Virus record (IMG/VR): IMGVR_UViG_3300025840_000015
Coordinates: 52,180 to 116,179 of that record
DNA from: a virus
Direction: 5' to 3' (one strand)
Length of the DNA stretch: 64,000 nt
A program made the translations under genes and the position numbers. The notes beneath the pieces were generated by a model, which saw only the letters and a list, made by a program, of their open reading frames with translations, made no database searches and was not told where the DNA came from. This document shows, piece by piece, positions 1,643 to 52,397 of the stretch (position 1 is its first letter; each line of letters begins with the position of its first letter).

Positions 1643-1670
1643 ATTGTATTGTGCGCACACATCTCGTCGA
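1643..1670 (-). promoter_or_regulatory. Promoter with palindrome over the -35
   Basis: -10 TACAAT (1643-1648), 16-nt spacer, -35 TCGACG (1665-1670). The -35 hexamer is the centre of the palindrome at 1661-1673. Confidence 0.5.
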
Positions 1671-1673
1671 GAT
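1661..1673. promoter_or_regulatory. CTCGTCGAG palindrome, site 1
   Basis: ATCTCG-T-CGAGAT, a perfect 6-bp inverted repeat around one base, over the -35 of the promoter for the gene at 1450-1614. Confidence 0.65.
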
Positions 1674-1686
1674 TCTGTATGCGCAC

Positions 1687-1699
1687 ATCTCGTCGAGAT
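1687..1699. promoter_or_regulatory. CTCGTCGAG palindrome, site 2
   Basis: A second identical copy, 26 bp (centre to centre) from site 1. Flanks are also shared: GCGCACATCTCG in site 2, GCGCACACATCTCG in site 1. It lies just past the stop of the gene at 1702-1836. Confidence 0.65.
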
Positions 1700-1701
1700 T
1701 T

Positions 1702-1836
1702 CTATACTTCCTCAACCTCCAATCCAAGGAGTTGATCAACAGTAACCTCCAAAAGTGCTGCCAATTCTTCATCACTCATCCATGTGATGTCGATCGGCAT
1801 TTCTTCGATCTGTGCGGTGGTGGTGAAGTGATCCAT
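1702..1836 (-). CDS. Acidic 44-residue peptide
   Basis: Begins MDHFTTTAQIEEMP and ends LLGLEVEEV; strongly acidic with a likely helix (DEELAALLEVTVDQLLGL). It is preceded by an SD-less leader containing the GCGGG/CCCGC hairpin at 1853-1869. Small acidic phage peptides often bind host proteins or mimic DNA, but nothing here proves that. Confidence 0.55.
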   Translation of the reverse strand: MDHFTTTAQIEEMPIDITWMSDEELAALLEVTVDQLLGLEVEEV

Positions 1837-1852
1837 GGTTTCTGGTGGTGGT

Positions 1853-1869
1853 GCGGGTTCCTGTCCCGC
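1853..1869 (-). promoter_or_regulatory. Leader hairpin GCGGG/CCCGC, copy 2
   Basis: Stem 1853-1857 with 1865-1869, loop TTCCTGT (plus strand). The 20 bases 1851-1870 are identical to 3011-3030. Confidence 0.6.
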
Positions 1870-1892
1870 TTGCTCTAATGGTAAAGGGTAAT

Positions 1893-1910
1893 GGGGGCGT
1901 TGCCGCCCCC
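1893..1910 (-). terminator. GGGGGCG/CGCCCCC hairpin
   Basis: A 7-bp perfect stem with a 4-nt loop, 12 nt past the stop of the gene at 1923-2132. Confidence 0.5.
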
Positions 1911-1922
1911 CTGGCAGACGGT

Positions 1923-2132
1923 TCAGCGATTGGCACGACGGCGGCGGATCTCATCGCCATAGGTGTGCGCCTCATCGTCGTAACGACCCTCAGCGATGGG
2001 GTTCCATCCCCGCATTGCCTCAGCGGCGCGGCGGGCATCCTGGGCGCTCCAGAGCAGCGCCTCATCGCTCATGCTCTTGGCACGTGCCTCCCAAGTGGCG
2101 AAATCAGCGGCGGTGGCGTAAGTGGCGATCAT
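1923..2132 (-). CDS. Hypothetical 69-residue protein
   Basis: Starts MIATYATAADFATWEARAKS and ends in an Arg-rich tail (RRRRANR). The middle, with ALLWSAQDARRAAEAMRGWNPIAEGR, looks helical. I take the ATG at 2132 because the preceding leader has the ACC-ATG form used by its neighbours and an extended -10 (TGCTACAAT) lies 25 nt upstream. Codons are much GC-richer than in the structural genes of the window. Confidence 0.6.
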   Translation of the reverse strand: MIATYATAADFATWEARAKSMSDEALLWSAQDARRAAEAMRGWNPIAEGRYDDEAHTYGDEIRRRRANR

Positions 2133-2271
2133 GGTCCGGTGGTGTGAACTGCGATAATTGTAGCAGATAATTGGGGGGGGAGAGAGGAGGAGATCGATCG
2201 AATCCCCATTGTGACGATTTATGAACAGTCCACCGATTGTCTGATTCTGGCGCCGGGCGCGTGTAGAATAA

Positions 2272-2332
2272 GGGGACAATCAGATGAGGGGTGGGGTAAC
2301 CCCGTTGATGAAATGGTCGCCACGCCCCCTGC
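2272..2332 (-). repeat. Duplicated upstream block, copy A
   Basis: About 60 bp resembling 4441-4503: both begin GGGGACAATC on the plus strand and end near GCCCCCTGC/GCCCCTGCC. Each copy lies about 140-205 nt upstream of a minus-strand ATG, and each abuts a -10-like hexamer on the minus strand. Confidence 0.5.
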
Positions 2333-2435
2333 GCAATTTTATTTGCGAACAATTGTGAAATGTGTTGACCCGACCGGATCCCCTATGCTAGGATTGGGGT
2401 AGAACCTTTTGTATGTTACGGATTGTTAAAGAAAG

Positions 2436-2451
2436 GGGGCGTTGCCGCCCC
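2436..2451 (-). terminator. GGGGCG/CGCCCC hairpin
   Basis: A 6-bp stem with a 4-nt loop, 9 nt past the stop of the gene at 2460-2747. Confidence 0.45.
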
Positions 2452-2459
2452 GTTGTGGT

Positions 2460-2747
2460 TCAATGGAAAAAGTCGTAAGGCGTTTGCTCTGTCGGATCAT
2501 ATCCCTCCCAGAGCATTGCTACAGTGCTAGCAATGCTGCGCTCTGCCTTCCAGCAGTCTAGGATGACATCCAGTGCCCAACCGTCATCAAGGGTGGCAGG
2601 GGGGCATTCCTGCGCCTCCACAGCATCCCAGAACTCTCCAAAGGACTCATCCTGCCAGCAGGATTCGGAATCCAGCGCCATGCGCCGGTTGTATTCTTGG
2701 CGCTCTTGGCGCTCCATCTCTGCAAGGGTGCTGTTGTGAAAATCCAT
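2460..2747 (-). CDS. Acidic 95-residue hypothetical protein
   Basis: From the ATG at 2747 the protein begins MDFHNSTLAEMERQERQ and is clearly acidic, with several Trp (ESCWQDESFGEFWDAVE). The start is favoured over an in-frame ATG further upstream because the ACC-ATG leader and a good sigma70-type promoter (2777-2805) sit directly in front of it. Function unknown. Confidence 0.65.
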   Translation of the reverse strand: MDFHNSTLAEMERQERQEYNRRMALDSESCWQDESFGEFWDAVEAQECPPATLDDGWALDVILDCWKAERSIASTVAMLWEGYDPTEQTPYDFFH

Positions 2748-2776
2748 GGTTCCGGTGTGGTGCGGTTTGCTTTGAA

Positions 2777-2805
2777 AGTATAGAGGCAAAGGGAGCAGGG
2801 GTCAA
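2777..2805 (-). promoter_or_regulatory. Sigma70-type promoter inside the upstream hairpin
   Basis: -35 TTGACC (2800-2805), 17-nt spacer, -10 TATACT (2777-2782). The -35 lies in the loop of the hairpin (2791-2815) that ends the preceding gene. Confidence 0.65.
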
Positions 2806-2815
2806 CCTGCCCCCC
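2791..2815 (-). terminator. GC-rich hairpin after the gene at 2823-2996
   Basis: GGG-GCAGG pairs with CCTGC-CCC around a loop that holds the -35 of the next gene's promoter. Confidence 0.45.
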
Positions 2816-2822
2816 GTAGGGA

Positions 2823-2996
2823 TCAGACCGTCTGATCCTTAATGGCATCATGTACCTCTCCCAGCATGTCATACCAACGGGTTAGACCTTTTTGACCCAT
2901 TTCGTGCCCTTTGGCGGACAGGAGCGCGATTCGGATCGTATCCCAATCGCCTGCGGCAAGGGTGACGGTTTTGTTTTTGGTGGTGGTGGTGCTCAT
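2823..2996 (-). CDS. Hypothetical 57-residue protein
   Basis: Starts MSTTTTKNKTVTLAAGDWDT and continues with a probable helical part (IRIALLSAKGHEMGQKGLTRWYDMLGEV split by glycines). It is a single gene with its own promoter (3038-3066) and a leader hairpin identical to that of the gene at 1702. No family recognised. Confidence 0.6.
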   Translation of the reverse strand: MSTTTTKNKTVTLAAGDWDTIRIALLSAKGHEMGQKGLTRWYDMLGEVHDAIKDQTV

Positions 2997-3012
2997 CAGT
3001 CTCGGGTGTGGT

Positions 3013-3029
3013 GCGGGTTCCTGTCCCGC
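3013..3029 (-). promoter_or_regulatory. Leader hairpin GCGGG/CCCGC, copy 3
   Basis: Stem 3013-3017 with 3025-3029; the 20 bases around it are identical to copy 2. Confidence 0.6.
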
Positions 3030-3037
3030 TTGAGCAT

Positions 3038-3066
3038 ATCCTACATCAGAAGGGGGGATCCGTCAT
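3038..3066 (-). promoter_or_regulatory. Sigma70-type promoter inside the upstream hairpin
   Basis: -35 ATGACG (3061-3066), 17-nt spacer, -10 TAGGAT (3038-3043). The -35 falls in the loop and 3' arm of the hairpin at 3052-3072. Confidence 0.55.
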
Positions 3067-3072
3067 CCCCCC
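3052..3072 (-). terminator. GGGGGGAT/ATCCCCCC hairpin
   Basis: An 8-bp perfect stem with a 5-nt loop, 13 nt past the stop of the gene at 3086-3748. Confidence 0.5.
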
Positions 3073-3085
3073 CAGTGGACGGTGG

Positions 3086-3748
3086 TCAGACCGTCACAAT
3101 CCTGTCTGCCTTTTTCTTTGCTGTTCCATGCGACGGAAAACATACAATAACGTTACGGTCGGAGTTAGCACAAATGCCGCAAGTTGCACATGTAACATTA
3201 TCATGAATCTTTGCAGGGCAGACTACACATTTGCGACCGTTGGTTGTTGTGAAGAACCGGCGCGATTCTGTGGAGGGAACAACAGCAACGGCAGGGATTC
3301 CGTGCTCTGTCATCACTTTATCAGCAACCTCTACAGACTCACAGGATGCAGAGATTGTGAAACCTTTGCTGTTTGCTTCCTTGATAATTTCAAGGTTCTC
3401 AGTGTTGAGAACGTGGTGAGTGTAAGTGTAACCTTTGCGCCCTTTGTTTGCTGCCACCAGATCAGCAACACTGGCGCGATCGATGTTCCCATCAACATGG
3501 GGCAGATCACCGGATACGTTGTGGCGCCAGATCTGACCGCGTGCAATCCGGCGAACCTTAGAGAGGAATTCCTCCCATACAATGCCGGTTTCGGATACCT
3601 TGCGCCATGCCGCGCCCTGGAAGTGGAATTTGGCGTAGCACGCTTCCGCCATGGGGCAGGTAGCGGGGCAGGATGCCTGTTCAGTGGTGCTGGCAGGGAT
3701 CCTGCCAAGTTGGGCGTTGCTGCTGGCGGGGTTGAAAGAGACGCGCAT
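3086..3748 (-). CDS. Cys-rich conserved phage protein, DUF7227-like
   Basis: A 220-residue protein with two Cys groups: SCPATCPMAEACYAKF near residues 27-41 and a C-terminal series CVVCPAK / CATCGICANS near residues 173-195. The start MRVSFNPASSNAQLGRIPAS and the SCPxxCP motif resemble a family of phage and cyanobacterial proteins (I believe DUF7227) whose function is unknown; metal or Fe-S binding is plausible from the Cys spacing. It has its own promoter (3771-3799) and terminal hairpin. Confidence 0.65.
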   Translation of the reverse strand: MRVSFNPASSNAQLGRIPASTTEQASCPATCPMAEACYAKFHFQGAAWRKVSETGIVWEEFLSKVRRIARGQIWRHNVSGDLPHVDGNIDRASVADLVAANKGRKGYTYTHHVLNTENLEIIKEANSKGFTISASCESVEVADKVMTEHGIPAVAVVPSTESRRFFTTTNGRKCVVCPAKIHDNVTCATCGICANSDRNVIVCFPSHGTAKKKADRIVTV

Positions 3749-3770
3749 TGGTGTGGTTGCGACTGATCAA

Positions 3771-3799
3771 ACAATAACAGGGGGGAGAGCGCCTGCCAA
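3771..3799 (-). promoter_or_regulatory. Sigma70-type promoter inside the upstream hairpin
   Basis: -35 TTGGCA (3794-3799), 17-nt spacer, -10 TATTGT (3771-3776). The -35 lies in the loop of the G6/C6 hairpin at 3780-3805. Confidence 0.6.
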
Positions 3800-3805
3800 C
3801 CCCCC
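3780..3805 (-). terminator. G6/C6 hairpin
   Basis: GGGGGG (3780-3785) with CCCCCC (3800-3805), just past the stop of the gene at 3819-4298. Confidence 0.45.
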
Positions 3806-3818
3806 TAGTGGACGGTTA

Positions 3819-4298
3819 TCAGATCGCCACACCATCCTGGCGAAGGCGATCCACAAGACGGGATGCCATGGCGCCACAATGGGGGCACTTTGTGGCGTAT
3901 TTGATCTCTGATTTAATTTTATGATCTTTCACCCGTGCGAACTTATAACGATAAACTTTGCTAAGTGTAAGCATTGCCTGCCTTTTTGTAATGTCGTTTT
4001 CATCAATCTCACGGTAGATTGTCACCAGATTGTGATAGGACAGGGTAGGATTACGGCGGATTTGATTCAATCGTGAAACTGCAAGTTTGGCGAATACTGC
4101 ATCACCAGTAGTTTCAGTGACTACATCAATCAGATAATCGTGAAAAGCAATAAGTTCTTCTTCTTTCTTTTGCTGCTGTTCTTTCTGTTCTTCCTCTTTC
4201 TTGATTGATTCGATCTGGGAGGTAATTTCCCGGAAAGATTCCACGAACTGCTTCTGCAGTTCGTTCAGGTTTGCGGTGAGAGTTTGGAGGTCGCTCAT
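3819..4298 (-). CDS. Coiled-coil protein with C-terminal CPHCG
   Basis: A 159-residue protein. Residues 1-60 are a charged coiled coil (KKEEEQKEQQQKKEEELIAF); the middle is helical; near the end is a CPHCG half zinc-knuckle with no obvious second pair, so a metal site would need a dimer. I use the ATG at 4298 (MSDLQTL); the in-frame extension upstream runs through the promoter-like GC-rich sequence. Function unknown. Confidence 0.65.
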   Translation of the reverse strand: MSDLQTLTANLNELQKQFVESFREITSQIESIKKEEEQKEQQQKKEEELIAFHDYLIDVVTETTGDAVFAKLAVSRLNQIRRNPTLSYHNLVTIYREIDENDITKRQAMLTLSKVYRYKFARVKDHKIKSEIKYATKCPHCGAMASRLVDRLRQDGVAI

Positions 4299-4440
4299 TG
4301 TTCTGGGTTGGGGTGGAATCGGATCCGTTTGTCCGATGGGCACAGTATGCCCCGGCAAGACGGGGCAGATCAACCAACCCTGTGCCACTACCAGAACCGT
4401 CCACAAGGGCGTTGTAAGGTCTTAAAATGCTCTATTGTAT

Positions 4441-4503
4441 GGGGACAATCGAAAGAGGGGAGGGGTATCCCTGTAGACGACAATACATCGCCACCGCCCC
4501 TGC
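4441..4503 (-). repeat. Duplicated upstream block, copy B
   Basis: Partner of 2272-2332. On the minus strand the block ends TTGTCCCC followed by ATACAATAG, a -10-like element. Confidence 0.5.
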
Positions 4504-4529
4504 CATAAAATAATTGTTTCAATATGTTA

Positions 4530-4559
4530 AAAAAAAGGATCCCGCACCACCAGGATCCT
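4530..4559 (-). terminator. Rho-independent terminator
   Basis: AGGATCC (4536-4542) pairs with GGATCCT (4553-4559); on the minus-strand transcript the stem is followed by a run of eight U. It ends transcripts from the gene at 4704. Confidence 0.75.
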
Positions 4560-4703
4560 CTAGACTCCAATCACCAGATACGCTATACCCATATTTTATC
4601 TTAACGTTCTCGCAGAGTGACTTTTTTTTTCTTTACAATGTGGGCAAACTCCTTCCCACACGGATAACTTTATTTTAGAGAGGCAAATCCCTTCCTCTTA
4701 AGA

Positions 4704-4898
4704 TTATTGTATCATCCAATGTGGGTCATTGTCAAGTGCAACCCAGAAAAAGTTACGATTGTTTGCACTTCTTAAGAATAGTTTGTTGTTCACGATTTGT
4801 TCAATAATGCATACAGAATCGCGTGCCATTAAATTGGCGAATCTGTTTTTTGCTTTTGATGAAATCGGTTTGACTTGAATGGTTTCCATGATGTCCAT
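4704..4898 (-). CDS. Conserved small cyanophage protein
   Basis: A 64-residue protein (MDIMETIQVKPISSKAKNRF...). The pattern KAKNRFAN, CIIEQ, LRSANNRNFFWV, DNDPHW is familiar from small conserved T4-like cyanophage ORFs of unknown function. The start could be the second Met (METIQV, 4889). The gene has a promoter with TATAAT (4911-4939) carrying a CTCGTCGAG palindrome over the -35, with a second palindrome 41 bp further. Confidence 0.7.
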   Translation of the reverse strand: MDIMETIQVKPISSKAKNRFANLMARDSVCIIEQIVNNKLFLRSANNRNFFWVALDNDPHWMIQ

Positions 4899-4910
4899 TG
4901 CAATGTGTTC

Positions 4911-4939
4911 ATTATAATGGATGGTGATAATCTCGTCGA
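4911..4939 (-). promoter_or_regulatory. Promoter with palindrome over the -35
   Basis: -10 TATAAT (4911-4916), 17-nt spacer, -35 TCGACG (4934-4939). The -35 is the core of the palindrome at 4930-4942. Confidence 0.6.
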
Positions 4940-4942
4940 GAT
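4930..4942. promoter_or_regulatory. CTCGTCGAG palindrome, site 3
   Basis: ATCTCG-T-CGAGAT on the -35 of the promoter for the gene at 4704-4898. Confidence 0.65.
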
Positions 4943-4970
4943 TGTGTGTGCCAATTGTTATGGTGTCACA

Positions 4971-4983
4971 ATCTCGACGAGAT
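4971..4983. promoter_or_regulatory. CTCGACGAG palindrome, site 4
   Basis: ATCTCG-A-CGAGAT, 41 bp (centre to centre) from site 3, close to four helical turns. It lies just past the stop of the gene at 4993-5214. Confidence 0.65.
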
Positions 4984-4992
4984 CCTTTTAGA

Positions 4993-5214
4993 TCACTGCT
5001 TGACGAGAGTCAGTTGATTCTCACGCAGTGCATTGTTGAAAAACTTACCAACGCTACCATCAGAATTGATGGTTTCCGTCAGAGTCGAAATAAACTGTTC
5101 TGCATTAACCACACCGTAGGTATAGTCTCGACCACCAGTAAAGGTGACGGTCACTTGATCATCGACAACATCAGAGATAGATTCGATGGCGGAAGAAGTG
5201 AACTTAGGGAACAT
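4993..5214 (-). CDS. KTSC-domain protein
   Basis: A 73-residue protein that fits the KTSC domain along its length: SSAIESISDVVDDQVTVTFTGG, a Tyr pair (DYTYGVV) and a C-terminal FFNNALREN corresponding to the domain's final helix. KTSC was named from the C-terminal region of some lysyl-tRNA synthetases and also occurs as stand-alone small phage proteins; its role is unknown. It has its own promoter (5277-5305). Confidence 0.75.
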   Translation of the reverse strand: MFPKFTSSAIESISDVVDDQVTVTFTGGRDYTYGVVNAEQFISTLTETINSDGSVGKFFNNALRENQLTLVKQ

Positions 5215-5276
5215 GATTTAGAATTGTGTAAAGGAACAGATGGAGTCTTTAGGGCGCTGCCGTTCCCTGTGTGATC

Positions 5277-5305
5277 AGTCTAGCATCAGAACTCGATGGT
5301 GTCTA
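5277..5305 (-). promoter_or_regulatory. Sigma70-type promoter, extended -10
   Basis: -35 TAGACA (5300-5305), 17-nt spacer, -10 TAGACT (5277-5282) preceded by TGC. It lies inside the last codons of the upstream gene. Confidence 0.55.
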
Positions 5306-5432
5306 GTGTAGGACAAACAGTTTCGCCAGATTCACAAGTGTCACTCCCATCACAGAGAACATCAAGAATTCGAAGGATTTCTGATCCATTGGAACCTTTG
5401 CGGAGTGCGTGGATGTAAAGTTCTTTAGTCAT
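5286..5432 (-). CDS. Small acidic protein, 48 residues
   Basis: MTKELYIHALRKGSNGSEILRILD, then an acidic Cys-containing tail (CDGSDTCESGETVC). The KGSNGSEILR-LDVLC pattern is typical of short conserved cyanophage proteins. The start at 5432 is preferred because the upstream extension has no supporting leader. Confidence 0.6.
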   Translation of the reverse strand: MTKELYIHALRKGSNGSEILRILDVLCDGSDTCESGETVCPTLDTIEF

Positions 5433-5502
5433 TGTTGCCTTTGGTTGACTCTGTAATTCTAAGGGCATGGCGGGGACATTGCTGCCCCCCTTGTGCCACT
5501 GC

Positions 5503-6009
5503 TCAGACTGTCATAAGGAGAGCAGGTTGTTCTGTAACGAAATCATACTCTTGGGTGTTAGTGTCACCCCAACCCAGTTTCCAACACTGCCATCCCAAAC
5601 CAGGAGTAAACAGATAGCACCATTCCTCTCCACAATCACCTGAGAGAAACTCATCGAAGTTGCTCATCCTAGGAGGAGCATCTTCACCTCGCTCACTATA
5701 ATACAGTGGAGCAGGTTTTGCTTTTACTGGAGAATAGACCCACTGTTCATTATCAGTGGTGATATATTCTACAGTTCTGTTACCCTCAGAATCATAGATC
5801 TCTTTTTTGAGAGGAACAGAATCCCAACGATGTGTGGTGTGCAACTGCCCCATATCACCACCGTTGATGAGTTCTTCTACCTGTTCTTTATACAGGTAGT
5901 TGTCAATAAGTTGGCGACCATTGTGTTGAATGTAACCATCATAATGACAGTAAACACTAATGATTTGATCGGGTCCGAGAGCAAGACCGATGCGAGAGCG
6001 AGTTCCCAT
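5503..6009 (-). CDS. Conserved phage protein starting MGTRSRIG
   Basis: A 168-residue protein. The start MGTRSRIGLALGPDQIISVY followed by CHYDGYIQHNG is the signature of a widespread phage and bacterial family of unknown function (GTRSxIG ... YxHxDGYxxHxG). Conserved His and Asp suggest metal or nucleotide binding, but that is inference. The rest has many Trp and Glu. It has its own promoter (6033-6061) with the -35 in the loop of a hairpin. Confidence 0.7.
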   Translation of the reverse strand: MGTRSRIGLALGPDQIISVYCHYDGYIQHNGRQLIDNYLYKEQVEELINGGDMGQLHTTHRWDSVPLKKEIYDSEGNRTVEYITTDNEQWVYSPVKAKPAPLYYSERGEDAPPRMSNFDEFLSGDCGEEWCYLFTPGLGWQCWKLGWGDTNTQEYDFVTEQPALLMTV

Positions 6010-6032
6010 GGTGTGTTGGGTGAACTGAGATC

Positions 6033-6061
6033 AGTGTAGCAGGTTTGGGGGATGCTGTCAT
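6033..6061 (-). promoter_or_regulatory. Sigma70-type promoter inside the upstream hairpin
   Basis: -35 ATGACA (6056-6061), 17-nt spacer, -10 TACACT (6033-6038) with TGC before it. The -35 is in the hairpin at 6047-6066. Confidence 0.6.
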
Positions 6062-6066
6062 CCCCC
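6047..6066 (-). terminator. GGGGGATG/CATCCCCC hairpin
   Basis: An 8-bp perfect stem with a 4-nt loop, 10 nt past the stop of the gene at 6076-6252. Confidence 0.55.
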
Positions 6067-6075
6067 TGTCAGGAA

Positions 6076-6252
6076 TCAGTAACTCAGATCCTCCAGATAT
6101 TCTGTGAAGATTTCTGACACTTCATCCCATTGGGCGTCCGTCAGAAAACCGCACTGATCCTCCATCCAGTTGGAAACCATAGACCAGTCTGCATCCATCT
6201 CTTGGATGAACTGGGGCAGGGACTGGAGAGCACTGATGAAATTAGAAGTCAT
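6076..6252 (-). CDS. Hypothetical 58-residue acidic protein
   Basis: MTSNFISALQSLPQFIQEMD..., ends YLEDLSY. Acidic and Trp-containing. Its ATG lies 8 nt inside the end of the preceding gene (6242-6376), so translation is probably coupled. No family recognised. Confidence 0.6.
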   Translation of the reverse strand: MTSNFISALQSLPQFIQEMDADWSMVSNWMEDQCGFLTDAQWDEVSEIFTEYLEDLSY

Positions 6253-6376
6253 GGTCGGAGTTGAGTTCCTGTTGAAAGTCTAGCATGGATTCCTGCATTT
6301 CGGGGATGTCGAAGATCTCACCCGGAGAATCCATGATCTCATTCCAGAGATCAGTGTCGATCAGATCAAATTCCAT
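6242..6376 (-). CDS. Hypothetical 44-residue acidic protein
   Basis: MEFDLIDTDLWNEIMDSPGE..., very acidic, no basic residue except one His. Overlaps its neighbours at both ends (11 nt), forming a three-gene coupled set with 6366-6560 and 6076-6252. Confidence 0.55.
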   Translation of the reverse strand: MEFDLIDTDLWNEIMDSPGEIFDIPEMQESMLDFQQELNSDHDF

Positions 6377-6560
6377 GAAGATTCTTAAGGTCTTGGATGG
6401 TGTGAGAGAGACCTGCCTTGCAGTATCCTACAGCATATGGGTAGGAACAGTCAAGATCACAGTCAGGTTTTGTTAGGTCTTGGGGACGTGCTGAGTATAG
6501 AACTTTTTGCATCCATTCCAGTTCCTGAATGATTTTTTCCAGTTTGGTTTTGTCGGTCAT
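6366..6560 (-). CDS. Hypothetical 64-residue protein with four Cys
   Basis: MTDKTKLEKIIQELEWMQKV, helical start, then CDLDCSYPYAVGYCKAG with three of its Cys close together. First gene of the coupled set. Function unknown. Confidence 0.6.
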   Translation of the reverse strand: MTDKTKLEKIIQELEWMQKVLYSARPQDLTKPDCDLDCSYPYAVGYCKAGLSHTIQDLKNLHGI

Positions 6561-6639
6561 TGGAGTTGGGTTCCGAACAAACGAATCATCTCACGGATTC
6601 CGGAGGGATGCAACGTGCCAGTGGACAGTCTATAAAGTG

Positions 6640-6765
6640 TCACCTGCGATAGGGAGAACTCCACCATTTGCGGTATGCAGTGTAAAGAATCACTGCAGTC
6701 GAAACGATACCGACCAGACCCAGAACTGTCACAGGGTCGCCGGAGAAATCATAAGTGTCTGGCAT
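6640..6765 (-). CDS. 41-residue membrane mini-protein
   Basis: MPDTYDFSGDPVTVLG, then one hydrophobic segment (VTVLGLVGIVSTAVILYTAY, with the last Tyr at residue 31) and a basic end (RKWWSSPYRR). Topology N-out, C-in by the positive-inside rule. Function unknown. Confidence 0.55.
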   Translation of the reverse strand: MPDTYDFSGDPVTVLGLVGIVSTAVILYTAYRKWWSSPYRR

Positions 6766-6771
6766 AATGAA

Positions 6772-6924
6772 TCAAAAAAACGGATCAACTTCGCGAATTG
6801 TAACATCAACTTCCTCTCCACCTTCAAGACCTAAAAGGTCTCTCCAGTCGAGTTTGTCAATGTCCAGATCATCATAACATGCAATGTCAAGTGTGACTGT
6901 GACTAAACGCTTTTGTGCTAGCAT
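6772..6924 (-). CDS. Acidic 50-residue protein
   Basis: MLAQKRLVTVTLDIACYDDLDIDKLDW..., ends IREVDPFF. The pattern beta-strand plus LDW-DLLGLEGGEEV is typical of a conserved small cyanophage protein. Its stop is 6 nt before the next gene (6765), so the two are one transcript. Confidence 0.6.
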   Translation of the reverse strand: MLAQKRLVTVTLDIACYDDLDIDKLDWRDLLGLEGGEEVDVTIREVDPFF

Positions 6925-6954
6925 GTGTCTTATGAGTATTGTTGATGTATTGTA

Positions 6955-7122
6955 TCATGCATAATGCTTATATGCAAGATCCTGATAGTCATTGTCACAC
7001 CTATCATAATCCTCATCATTGTCGTCATAAGACTCAAGACGAGAATAATGTTCGTAGTATGAGTCTTCGTCAAGACAATGATCATTGATGGTGATGTAGT
7101 CGAGATCGTAGTCGTCGTACAT
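6955..7122 (-). CDS. Asp/Tyr-rich 55-residue protein
   Basis: MYDDYDLDYITINDHCLDED... with about 16 Asp or Glu and 11 Tyr. Such composition suggests a disordered acidic protein or DNA mimic, by inference only. It is controlled by the most complex promoter of the region: three CTCGTCGAG sites, one within 2 nt of the start codon and one between -35 and -10. Confidence 0.6.
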   Translation of the reverse strand: MYDDYDLDYITINDHCLDEDSYYEHYSRLESYDDNDEDYDRCDNDYQDLAYKHYA

Positions 7123-7123
7123 A

Positions 7124-7135
7124 ACTCGTCGAGAT
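7124..7135. promoter_or_regulatory. CTCGTCGAG palindrome, site 5
   Basis: ACTCGTCGAGAT, one mismatch in the outer arm, directly before the ATG at 7122, where a ribosome would bind. Confidence 0.6.
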
Positions 7136-7153
7136 TCTACTGTTTACTTGTGT

Positions 7154-7182
7154 ATTGTAGCATGATTCTCGTCGAGATACAA
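7154..7182 (-). promoter_or_regulatory. Promoter with palindrome in the spacer
   Basis: -35 TTGTAT (7177-7182), 17-nt spacer, -10 TACAAT (7154-7159) preceded by TGC. Palindrome site 6 fills the spacer. Confidence 0.6.
7167..7178. promoter_or_regulatory. CTCGTCGAG palindrome, site 6
   Basis: TCTCGTCGAGA core between -35 and -10 of the promoter for the gene at 6955-7122, a classic repressor position. Confidence 0.65.
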
Positions 7183-7199
7183 CTAATTGCCTGATATAT

Positions 7200-7210
7200 T
7201 CTCGTCGAGA
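7200..7210. promoter_or_regulatory. CTCGTCGAG palindrome, site 7
   Basis: TCTCGTCGAGA, 32-33 bp upstream of site 6 (centre to centre), about three helical turns. Confidence 0.6.
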
Positions 7211-7595
7211 TCTCATACCATATATGTATAAAAACGTCAAGGAATTGTGTGGATTTGCAAATTTTTATGTCTGGATGTGAAGATTTTTGCCGGGCGCTTG
7301 ACATTTTCGGCGTCTTGTGATAGTGCGCACGCCAAACTCACAAGACCTGGGCACATTACCATAAGATATAAGAGTTATTACCATAAGATACCAGGCACAT
7401 TACCATAAGATATAAGAACCATTATCATAAGATATAAAAGTTATTATCATAAGATATAAGAGTTCAAAACCCTTTATTTATACAATTTAACTTCATTTTA
7501 ATCTCTTATATCCTGATTTCAACAAAAAATGCCCAAAAAAGCACTGTTACAATATAAATTACATACATACAATACAGTTAAACACTATTGCCCCA
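7211..7595. other. Intergenic region with promoter-like element and tandem repeats
   Basis: No supported gene. A possible plus-strand promoter has TTGACA at 7298-7303 and a weak TAGTGC at 7321-7326 (17-nt spacer). The 22-bp repeats follow at 7355-7464, then 100 AT-rich bases up to the GIY-YIG gene. Confidence 0.5.
7355..7464. repeat. Five tandem 22-bp repeats
   Basis: Five units of exactly 22 bp (7355, 7377, 7399, 7421, 7443) with the form ATTACCATAAGATATAAGAG-TT; units 4 and 5 have ATTATC, unit 2 differs at its end. The period is two DNA turns and the neighbouring sequence is AT-rich, as in iteron origins or multi-site operators. Confidence 0.8.
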
Positions 7596-26579: not shown

Positions 26580-26587
26580 TTAGTAAT

Positions 26588-26670
26588 GCGAGTAGGGAGA
26601 CTTGAACTCCCACGGGATTGCTCCCAACAGATTTTAAGTCTGGTGCGTCTACCGATTCCGCCACACTCGC
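26588..26670 (-). tRNA. tRNA-Leu (UAA), copy 1
   Basis: 83 nt, class II. Acceptor GCGAGTG/TACTCGC, D-arm GCGGAATCGGTAGACGC, anticodon loop CTTAAAA giving UAA, a long variable arm (GGGAGCAATCCC), T-arm GGGAGTTCAAGTCTCCC. No CCA is encoded. It reads UUA, a codon favoured by AT-rich phage genes. Confidence 0.92.
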
Positions 26671-26725
26671 TTGATGGTATTATGCTTTGAATGCTAATAA
26701 AAGCATTACAACCTGAATACCAAGT

Positions 26726-26808
26726 AGGAACGGAGAGACTTGAACTCTCACGGGCAATTGCCCAACAGATTTTAAGTCTGGTGCGTCTACCGATTCCGCC
26801 ACGCTCCC
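26726..26808 (-). tRNA. tRNA-Leu (UAA), copy 2
   Basis: 83 nt, class II, anticodon UAA again. The D-arm and anticodon arm are identical to copy 1; acceptor (GGGAGCG/CGTTCCT), variable arm and T-arm differ with compensating changes. No CCA encoded. Confidence 0.92.
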
Positions 26809-26815
26809 ATTTGTT

Positions 26816-26890
26816 TGGTAGGACTGGAGGGAATTGAACCCTCTTCACACCGTTATAAGCAGTGGGCCTTAACCAATAGGCGACAGTCCC
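26816..26890 (-). tRNA. tRNA-Ile (UAU), copy 1
   Basis: Acceptor GGGACTG/CAGTCCT, D-arm GCCTATTGGTTAAGGC, anticodon stem CACTG/CGGTG with loop CTTATAA giving UAU, T-arm GAGGGTTCAATTCCCTC. A CCA end is encoded (26816-26818). It reads AUA. The anticodon is read from the loop alone; the identity elements were not tested. Confidence 0.85.
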
Positions 26891-26893
26891 ATT

Positions 26894-26968
26894 TGGTAGG
26901 AATACTGGGAGTTGAACCCAGACTAACCCGTTATAAGCAGGCCGCTCTAACCATTAAGCTATATTCCC
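26894..26968 (-). tRNA. tRNA-Ile (UAU), copy 2
   Basis: Acceptor GGGAATA/TATTCCT, anticodon stem GCCTG/CGGGT with loop CTTATAA giving UAU, T-arm CTGGGTTCAACTCCCAG, CCA encoded (26894-26896). Only 3 nt from copy 1, so the two are processed from one transcript. Confidence 0.85.
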
Positions 26969-51470: not shown

Positions 51471-52397
51471 TCATTCATCTGCAAGTCGTGCAAAGTATGA
51501 AAGAGTTTCATCATCGTCATCATCATAACTAGAAGAAGAATTGCTACGAGATGGTTTGAGATCATTCAGTTCACTTCGCAAATCTTGTGTAATTTCGCGA
51601 GATGGACCACGGAAGTCTTCTTCATCTTGAACTTCTTCATCAATGTTGGGGCGTTGTTGCTTAACTCCAATAACATTATCAAAACGCTTTTTCAGTTCAT
51701 CATAAGTCTTGAACTGATCAGAGGCAACCAACTGCTCCAAAGAATATTGCTTTTTCCAGATTGCTTCCATTTCATCGTCATCATCAAGAAGTTGACCAGG
51801 ACGAGAAAACTCTGAAGAATCATAGTTGCGATAACCAGCAACATTCTTTGCTTTGAGTTTAAAATTAGCGCCTGTCCAGAAGTCAAAAGGATCAATTGCT
51901 TCCTCATCTTCAAATTCTGGTTGCATTGCTGCAGTCAGTTTATCAAAGATCTTTTTACCAAACTTATAAAGGAAAACTCGACCTTCATTATCAGGATTTG
52001 TTGGATCCTTGACAACATAAATGTTAGCAATGTAAGTCAATTTACGCTTTTGCTTACGTGCTTGTTCTTTTCCAGCATCAGTTCCATTATTCCAGAGCAT
52101 AGAGTTATATTCCGAAACTGGATCTTTTTGTCCCATGGTCGTCAAAGAGTTTTCAATATACCAACCACCAGGACCTTGGAAAGCGTGACTATAGAGTTTC
52201 ACAAAAGGAAGATCTTCATTTTCTGGTGCAGGGAGAAAACGAATTACTGCATAACCATTGCCACTTTTGTCAACTTCAAGTTTCCAGAAGCGTTCATCTG
52301 CAGATCCACTTGTATTATTCATTTTTTCAACTTCCTTGACAAGTTTTTGAGTCAAGGAACCAAGTTTGGATTGCTTTTTAAGATTTGCGAAAGACAT
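51471..52397 (-). CDS. 32: Single-stranded DNA-binding protein gp32
   Basis: 308 residues. MSFANLKKQSKLGSLTQKLVKEVEK is the cooperative N-terminal domain; the OB core is marked by YAVIRFLPAPENEDLPFV, YIANIYVVKDPTNPDNEGRVFLYKFGKKI and WTGANFKLK; the C-terminus is the acidic protein-binding tail (SYDDDDDETLSYFARLADE). The T4 zinc ligands (H-x12-C-x9-C-x2-C) are missing and the whole protein has no Cys. Expressed from a consensus early promoter (52449-52477). Confidence 0.92.
   Translation of the reverse strand: MSFANLKKQSKLGSLTQKLVKEVEKMNNTSGSADERFWKLEVDKSGNGYAVIRFLPAPENEDLPFVKLYSHAFQGPGGWYIENSLTTMGQKDPVSEYNSMLWNNGTDAGKEQARKQKRKLTYIANIYVVKDPTNPDNEGRVFLYKFGKKIFDKLTAAMQPEFEDEEAIDPFDFWTGANFKLKAKNVAGYRNYDSSEFSRPGQLLDDDDEMEAIWKKQYSLEQLVASDQFKTYDELKKRFDNVIGVKQQRPNIDEEVQDEEDFRGPSREITQDLRSELNDLKPSRSNSSSSYDDDDDETLSYFARLADE

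Follow-up and report, generated by a model that had tools for sequence, protein, structure and literature searches.

The 64,000-nucleotide stretch of viral DNA analysed here, hereafter the window, corresponds to positions 52,180 to 116,179 of the IMG/VR record IMGVR_UViG_3300025840_000015. It carries seven copies of a short palindrome, located at the promoters of genes from small-protein families designated fam12, fam23, and fam1 together with fam0 (Table 1). Counted with at most one mismatch, the 11-bp core TCTCGWCGAGA matches the window seven times; the average over 100 dinucleotide shuffles is 0.25, and no shuffle reached seven. The copy at 7124 carries the single mismatch and the other six are exact; within the whole 116,179-b record these six are confined to positions 1662-7210 (base-composition expectation, 0.024).

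The original prediction, made from the letters of this stretch, had described a palindrome of 11-13 bp that occurs seven times and nowhere else in the window. Both the count and the confinement were borne out, and the core is present at all seven positions, once with a mismatch; the longer form fared less well, as only four copies of the exact 13-mer exist and three sites near 7.1-7.2 kb are off by one outer base. The sites do fall into pairs and a triplet, with start-to-start spacings of 26, 41, and 43/33 bp, and the promoter overlaps that had been claimed are present, at the -35 positions in 1643-1670 and 4911-4939 and in the spacer at 7154-7182. A site had also been placed at the start codon of the gene at 6955, and it stops 1-2 nt short of the ATG that opens the reading frame 7122-6955. 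Random placement inside genes, genome-wide, had been named as an outcome that would speak against a regulon; exact copies were found in this region only, and the regulon was not refuted.

Table 1. Palindromic sites (at most one mismatch to the core), promoters and genes. Coordinates are those of the window unless marked otherwise.
Feature	Coordinates	Strand	Remarks
Site 1 (TCTCGTCGAGA)	1662-1672	strandless	covers -35 position of fam12 promoter
Site 2	1688-1698	strandless	26 bp from site 1
Site 3	4931-4941	strandless	covers -35 position of fam23 promoter
Site 4 (TCTCGACGAGA)	4972-4982	strandless	41 bp from site 3
Site 5 (ACTCGTCGAGA)	7124-7134	strandless	between transcription start and fam1 start codon
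Site 6	7167-7177	strandless	within -35/-10 spacer of fam1/fam0 promoter
Site 7	7200-7210	strandless	upstream of fam1/fam0 -35
fam12 promoter	1643-1670	-	-10 TACAAT at 1648-1643; site 1 over -35 position
fam23 promoter	4911-4939	-	-10 TATAAT at 4916-4911; site 3 over -35 position
fam1/fam0 promoter	7154-7182	-	-35 TTGTAT at 7182-7177; 17-bp spacer; extended -10 TGcTACAAT, hexamer at 7159-7154
fam12 small gene, 54 aa	1450-1614	-	target of sites 1-2; 35 loci encode the family
fam23 small gene, 64 aa, phrog_1653	4704-4898	-	target of sites 3-4; 28 loci encode the family
fam1 gene, very acidic protein	6955-7122	-	upstream partner of fam0
fam0 gene, 50 aa, phrog_12516	6772-6924	-	downstream of fam1, same strand
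Winged-helix protein, 99 aa	737-1036	-	downstream of fam12 promoter; probable regulon member
phrog_661 protein, 58 aa	G000:C1:51982-52158 (own record)		21 bp left of window

Distribution and sequence conservation of the sites

IMG/VR was searched with a pattern of two sites 8-38 bp apart, and the site and locus counts given here refer to the loci fetched in this way. Site pairs were present in at least 119 IMG/VR stretches, and the neighbours of the site clusters belong mostly to the same three small-protein families, i.e., fam0 with fam1, fam23, and fam12. Sites are located directly upstream of fam0 in all of the 88 loci that have this gene. The fetched loci contain 409 exact sites, in all of which the centre is A or T, although any base was permitted at this position, and the distances from one site start to the next have their maxima at 22-24, 31-33, and about 42 bp. 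With at most one mismatch there are 763 sites, 753 of them clustered and 10 isolated. The tolerated changes affect mostly the outermost base, or replace C by A at position 4, which leads to the core CTMGWCKAG.

By megablast, Synechococcus phage S-SRM01 (Kyanoviridae) is the closest of the named relatives; 13 of its 14 sites are found inside 5.5 kb of the syntenic region. Clustered sites are also present in P-SSM2, S-SKS1, P-SSM5, and S-T4, while none were found in 13 other T4-like phages, including S-PM2, syn9, P-SSM4, S-RSM4, Bellamy, S-CRM01, and T4 itself. When 17 genomes or contigs were scanned for the core, clusters appeared only in the phages of this group and in one further genome, G001, whose sites have two outer mismatches; reversed-sequence controls gave none. 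The count in the full genome and in other cyanophages, which had been proposed as a check, thus revealed conserved clusters in one phage group and their absence from others. Within the T4-like cyanophages, the palindrome is a predicted operator that one clade has conserved. Since about a hundred related viral sequences carry it on the same promoters, a viral switch protein that would turn off a set of early genes very probably docks there.

No paper describing the site was found in the searched library of non-subscription literature; the original prediction likewise knew of no described cyanophage operator of this sequence. The listed literature matches to the site sequence were unrelated, and the only one from a phage, DLP6 (PMC5349666), corresponds to a predicted terminator stem. 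In the S-T4 sequence (MH412654), a five-site cluster occurs twice with identical spacing, at 2747-2934 and at 174316-174503, 171,569 bp apart, which suggests a terminal repeat or an assembly overlap in this entry.

In the relatives, 80 sites are located within the fam1 coding sequence. All of them are in one reading frame and nearly all encode Leu-Asp-Glu (LDE), usually as DLDE. The third codon positions of fam1 are twice as variable as the others, which indicates that the fam1 protein is real. Among the LDE tripeptides of fam1, 95 of 120 are encoded by exactly CTCGACGAG, as compared with 1.3% predicted from codon usage, and the corresponding figure in other genes is 19 of 138. From this excess, together with the single LDE frame, selection appears to act on the acidic peptide and on the DNA sequence alike, and the codon choice at the sites goes beyond what selection on the protein alone would explain. 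The codons of fam1 present a clear case of joint selection on predicted DNA-binding sites and on protein sequence. In S-SKS1 (HQ633071, approximately 150650-151330), two full palindromes and about ten half-site-like copies of CGAGATACA are found in and around fam1.

Promoter geometry and the proposed repression

The palindromic sites are confined to promoters, in numbers above chance, and their position relative to the core promoter elements that they overlap is fixed. Read in the direction of the target gene, a TATAAT-like hexamer starts 18 nt after the site in 54 cases and 17 nt after it in 21 cases, whereas no offset exceeded 10 in a random-placement control; a further group of sites is located 22-25 nt after the -10. 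The fam1/fam0 promoter of the window reads TTGTAT-CTCGACGAGAATCATGC-TACAAT (7182-7154), and the P-SSM2 promoter reads TTGACA-ATCTCGACTAGATCTGG-TATAAT, with the site in the spacer and a -35 that is exactly TTGACA. Alignment of the fam1/fam0 promoters reveals a TTG at -35, the site within the spacer, and an extended -10 of the form TGcTATAAT. At fam12 and fam23 the offset to the -10 is 24-25 and there is no good -35 hexamer. The strand bias of the centre base is small on these two promoters (22:17 and 33:20), as would be expected for a symmetric dimer.

We consider it likely that the sites serve as operators for a DNA-binding repressor which is dimeric and encoded by the phage. Dimers of this protein would bind in or over strong sigma70-type promoters used by the host RNA polymerase, and further dimers would sit between the start point and the start codon. 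The distances between sites, of about two, three or four helical turns, would permit cooperative binding of the dimers. Repression is the best reading because one protein in the spacer and another just past the start would block RNA polymerase. Gene timing is poorly known in T4-like cyanophages, which are not known to have MotA, the middle regulator of T4; the promoters would most likely fire at once after infection and then be shut off as the repressor accumulates. The repressor regulon of the original prediction is strongly supported in its layout by comparative data, namely the fixed -10 geometry, the clustered and nearly helical spacing, and the recurrence of the same three promoters in many phages; the regulator that it had named first did not stand as the general one (see below).

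Predicted in this way, the system is one that works like the multi-operator repressor systems of other phages. The OR/OL operators of lambda and the Arc/Mnt operators of P22 likewise consist of several palindromes that overlie promoters at distances suited to cooperative binding by dimers. In contrast to lambda and P22, the phages here are lytic T4-like cyanophages, the site is compact (11-13 bp), the arrays reach up to nine sites, some sites lie within coding sequence, and no lysogeny genes are implied.

Two features weigh against this repressor model. The spacing peaks match a period of 9-10.5 bp only roughly, and the fam12 and fam23 promoters have the site in place of a recognisable -35, an arrangement that could also suit an activator. 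The sites might then belong to middle-type promoters such as those served by MotA in T4, in which the -10 is kept and the -35 is replaced by the activator site; the coverage of the -35 and the -10 offset at these two promoters would fit. T4 is of the same phage superfamily, and both systems share the sigma70-type -10 and, as proposed here, a phage-encoded factor. However, the most conserved promoter, that of fam1/fam0, has its own -35 and an extended -10 and accommodates the site in its spacer, and an activator bound at the site downstream of the start would obstruct. The motif, moreover, is not a MotA box, which is non-palindromic and activating; here a perfect palindrome is found inside complete promoters which keep their -35 as well as past the start, and this argues against a middle-promoter system of the MotA type. 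An activator is unlikely.

It is quite improbable that the arrays serve in replication initiation, partition or packaging instead of transcription control. Every site does lie within one 5-8 kb region per genome, but the set distances to -10 boxes and start codons, with one cluster for the promoter of each of three separate operons, are at odds with such a role. An RNA hairpin in the 5' leaders has an almost negligible probability: folding into a 6-bp stem and a 3-nt loop is possible (-3 kcal/mol) and one site is just ahead of a start codon, but many sites are upstream of or within the promoter and so would not be transcribed from it, shuffled versions of the variant at the fam1 promoter fold just as well (z -0.18), and an Rfam search gave no match.

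With repression by a phage protein as the preferred reading, the presence of a defined operator in the cultured phages P-SSM2, S-SKS1, S-T4, and S-SRM01, and its frequency in IMG/VR contigs, would make early-gene shut-off directly testable, and the palindrome itself could serve as a sequence bait in the search for the regulator.

Candidate regulators

The leading candidate for the regulator, put forward tentatively, is the phrog_661 protein, whose gene is located just outside the window and which is predicted to adopt an AbrB/MazE fold. The top Foldseek matches of its AlphaFold model (predicted local distance difference test score, 71) are AbrB, MazE, and SpoVT, with probabilities of 0.93-0.98 and an E value of about 0.1. 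A Pfam search of the protein gave no hit, and PDB yielded nothing significant when searched with a sequence profile of the AbrB-like alignment; the Pfam MazE model is too insensitive to classify phage records. Complete regions were defined as those spanning fam0/fam1 to fam3. The protein is encoded in 70 of the 73 operator-bearing regions and in three of six without operators, one of them cut at the promoter (Fisher p about 0.005, uncorrected for kinship). Known members of the AbrB/MazE/SpoVT group act on DNA in dimeric form, and autoregulation is frequent among them. The phrog_661 protein differs from them in being acidic and only 58 aa long, in having no toxin partner that was noticed, and in its absence from one operator-bearing lineage.

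Several observations count against this candidate. The lineage G007/L045/L072 bears operators without the protein, and Sf-CH8 encodes the protein without operators. AbrB-fold proteins are also found in phages which lack operators, and confidence in the model is moderate for a protein that is, in addition, acidic. Because the operator-bearing phages are phylogenetically related, the association is in part inherited. As the sole regulator, phrog_661 was rejected, with G007 and Sf-CH8 as counterexamples. A divergent version is present in S-CAM7 and ACG-2014f, where operators are absent, and short acidic proteins with an AbrB/MazE-like fold are widespread in T4-like cyanophage genomes, mostly annotated as hypothetical.

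One could speculate, with less confidence than in phrog_661 as such, about a temporal switch of lytic T4-like cyanophages in which a tiny acidic AbrB-fold protein silences early promoters of the host polymerase via operator arrays, some of which double as fam1 codons. The fam1 protein might then be a DNA-mimic anti-repressor, its gene carrying the very sites with which it would compete.

The regulator named first in the original prediction was the winged-helix protein encoded at 737-1036, a member of the fam73 superfamily encoded near the sites. It has a classical DNA-binding fold with a weak match to MarR/IclR. The collected loci and genomes contain 44 open reading frames of this family; 42 of the 44 loci have operator clusters, and the protein marks 12 of 15 regulons with three clusters. 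Nevertheless, it is absent from the complete operator-bearing genomes P-SSM2, S-SKS1, S-T4, and G001, and is present in 20 of the 73 operator-bearing regions and missing from 53. As a general regulator it was rejected, since it is not present wherever operators are, and its identity with the repressor is improbable. Its position downstream of an operator-bearing promoter in the window, in S-SRM01, and in G007 indicates that it is probably a target of the regulon.

That a host regulator binds the sites, also among the earlier suggestions, is very unlikely. What speaks for it is that the search of the phages for a repressor yielded candidates only. Site pairs were sought in the genomes of 84,980 bacterial and archaeal species, which yielded 57 scattered stretches, none with a cyanobacterial title; most come from genomes of high G+C content and look like chance, and other cyanophages are without sites. 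One of the 57, L146, carries the phage winged helix and is probably a misbinned phage contig.

Most of the remaining probability falls to another phage protein. Unbiased phyletic profiling for proteins that track the operators gave the best profile to DUF7294 (69 aa), which has no evidence of DNA binding, and genome-wide profiling found no basic, conserved helix-turn-helix protein and no candidate superior to phrog_661.

Neighbouring genes and repeats

In G007, an extra operator pair is located directly 5' of a tRNA-Leu(TAA) gene (L564 2347-2533; G007 122347-122533), and the promoter spacer there holds a third, degenerate site. The largest operator cluster of the window adjoins a gene for a GIY-YIG endonuclease (Pfam PF01541; 7596-8300), and in S-SRM01 an HNH endonuclease gene adjoins one cluster. 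Endonucleases of this mixed GIY-YIG/HNH family are found in 45 of the loci, and it is possible that their genes home into operator regions.

Two further repeats are present in the window. About five tandem-like copies of ATTACCATAAGATATAAGAG, which is non-palindromic, occur at 7350-7465. Several copies of TATAAAGAATAA and its inverse are present at 1130-1330, between the winged-helix gene and fam12, and this family may be another regulatory array. Neighbouring duplicate tRNA genes, two for tRNA-Leu(TAA) and two for tRNA-Ile(TAT), are found at 26587-26968.

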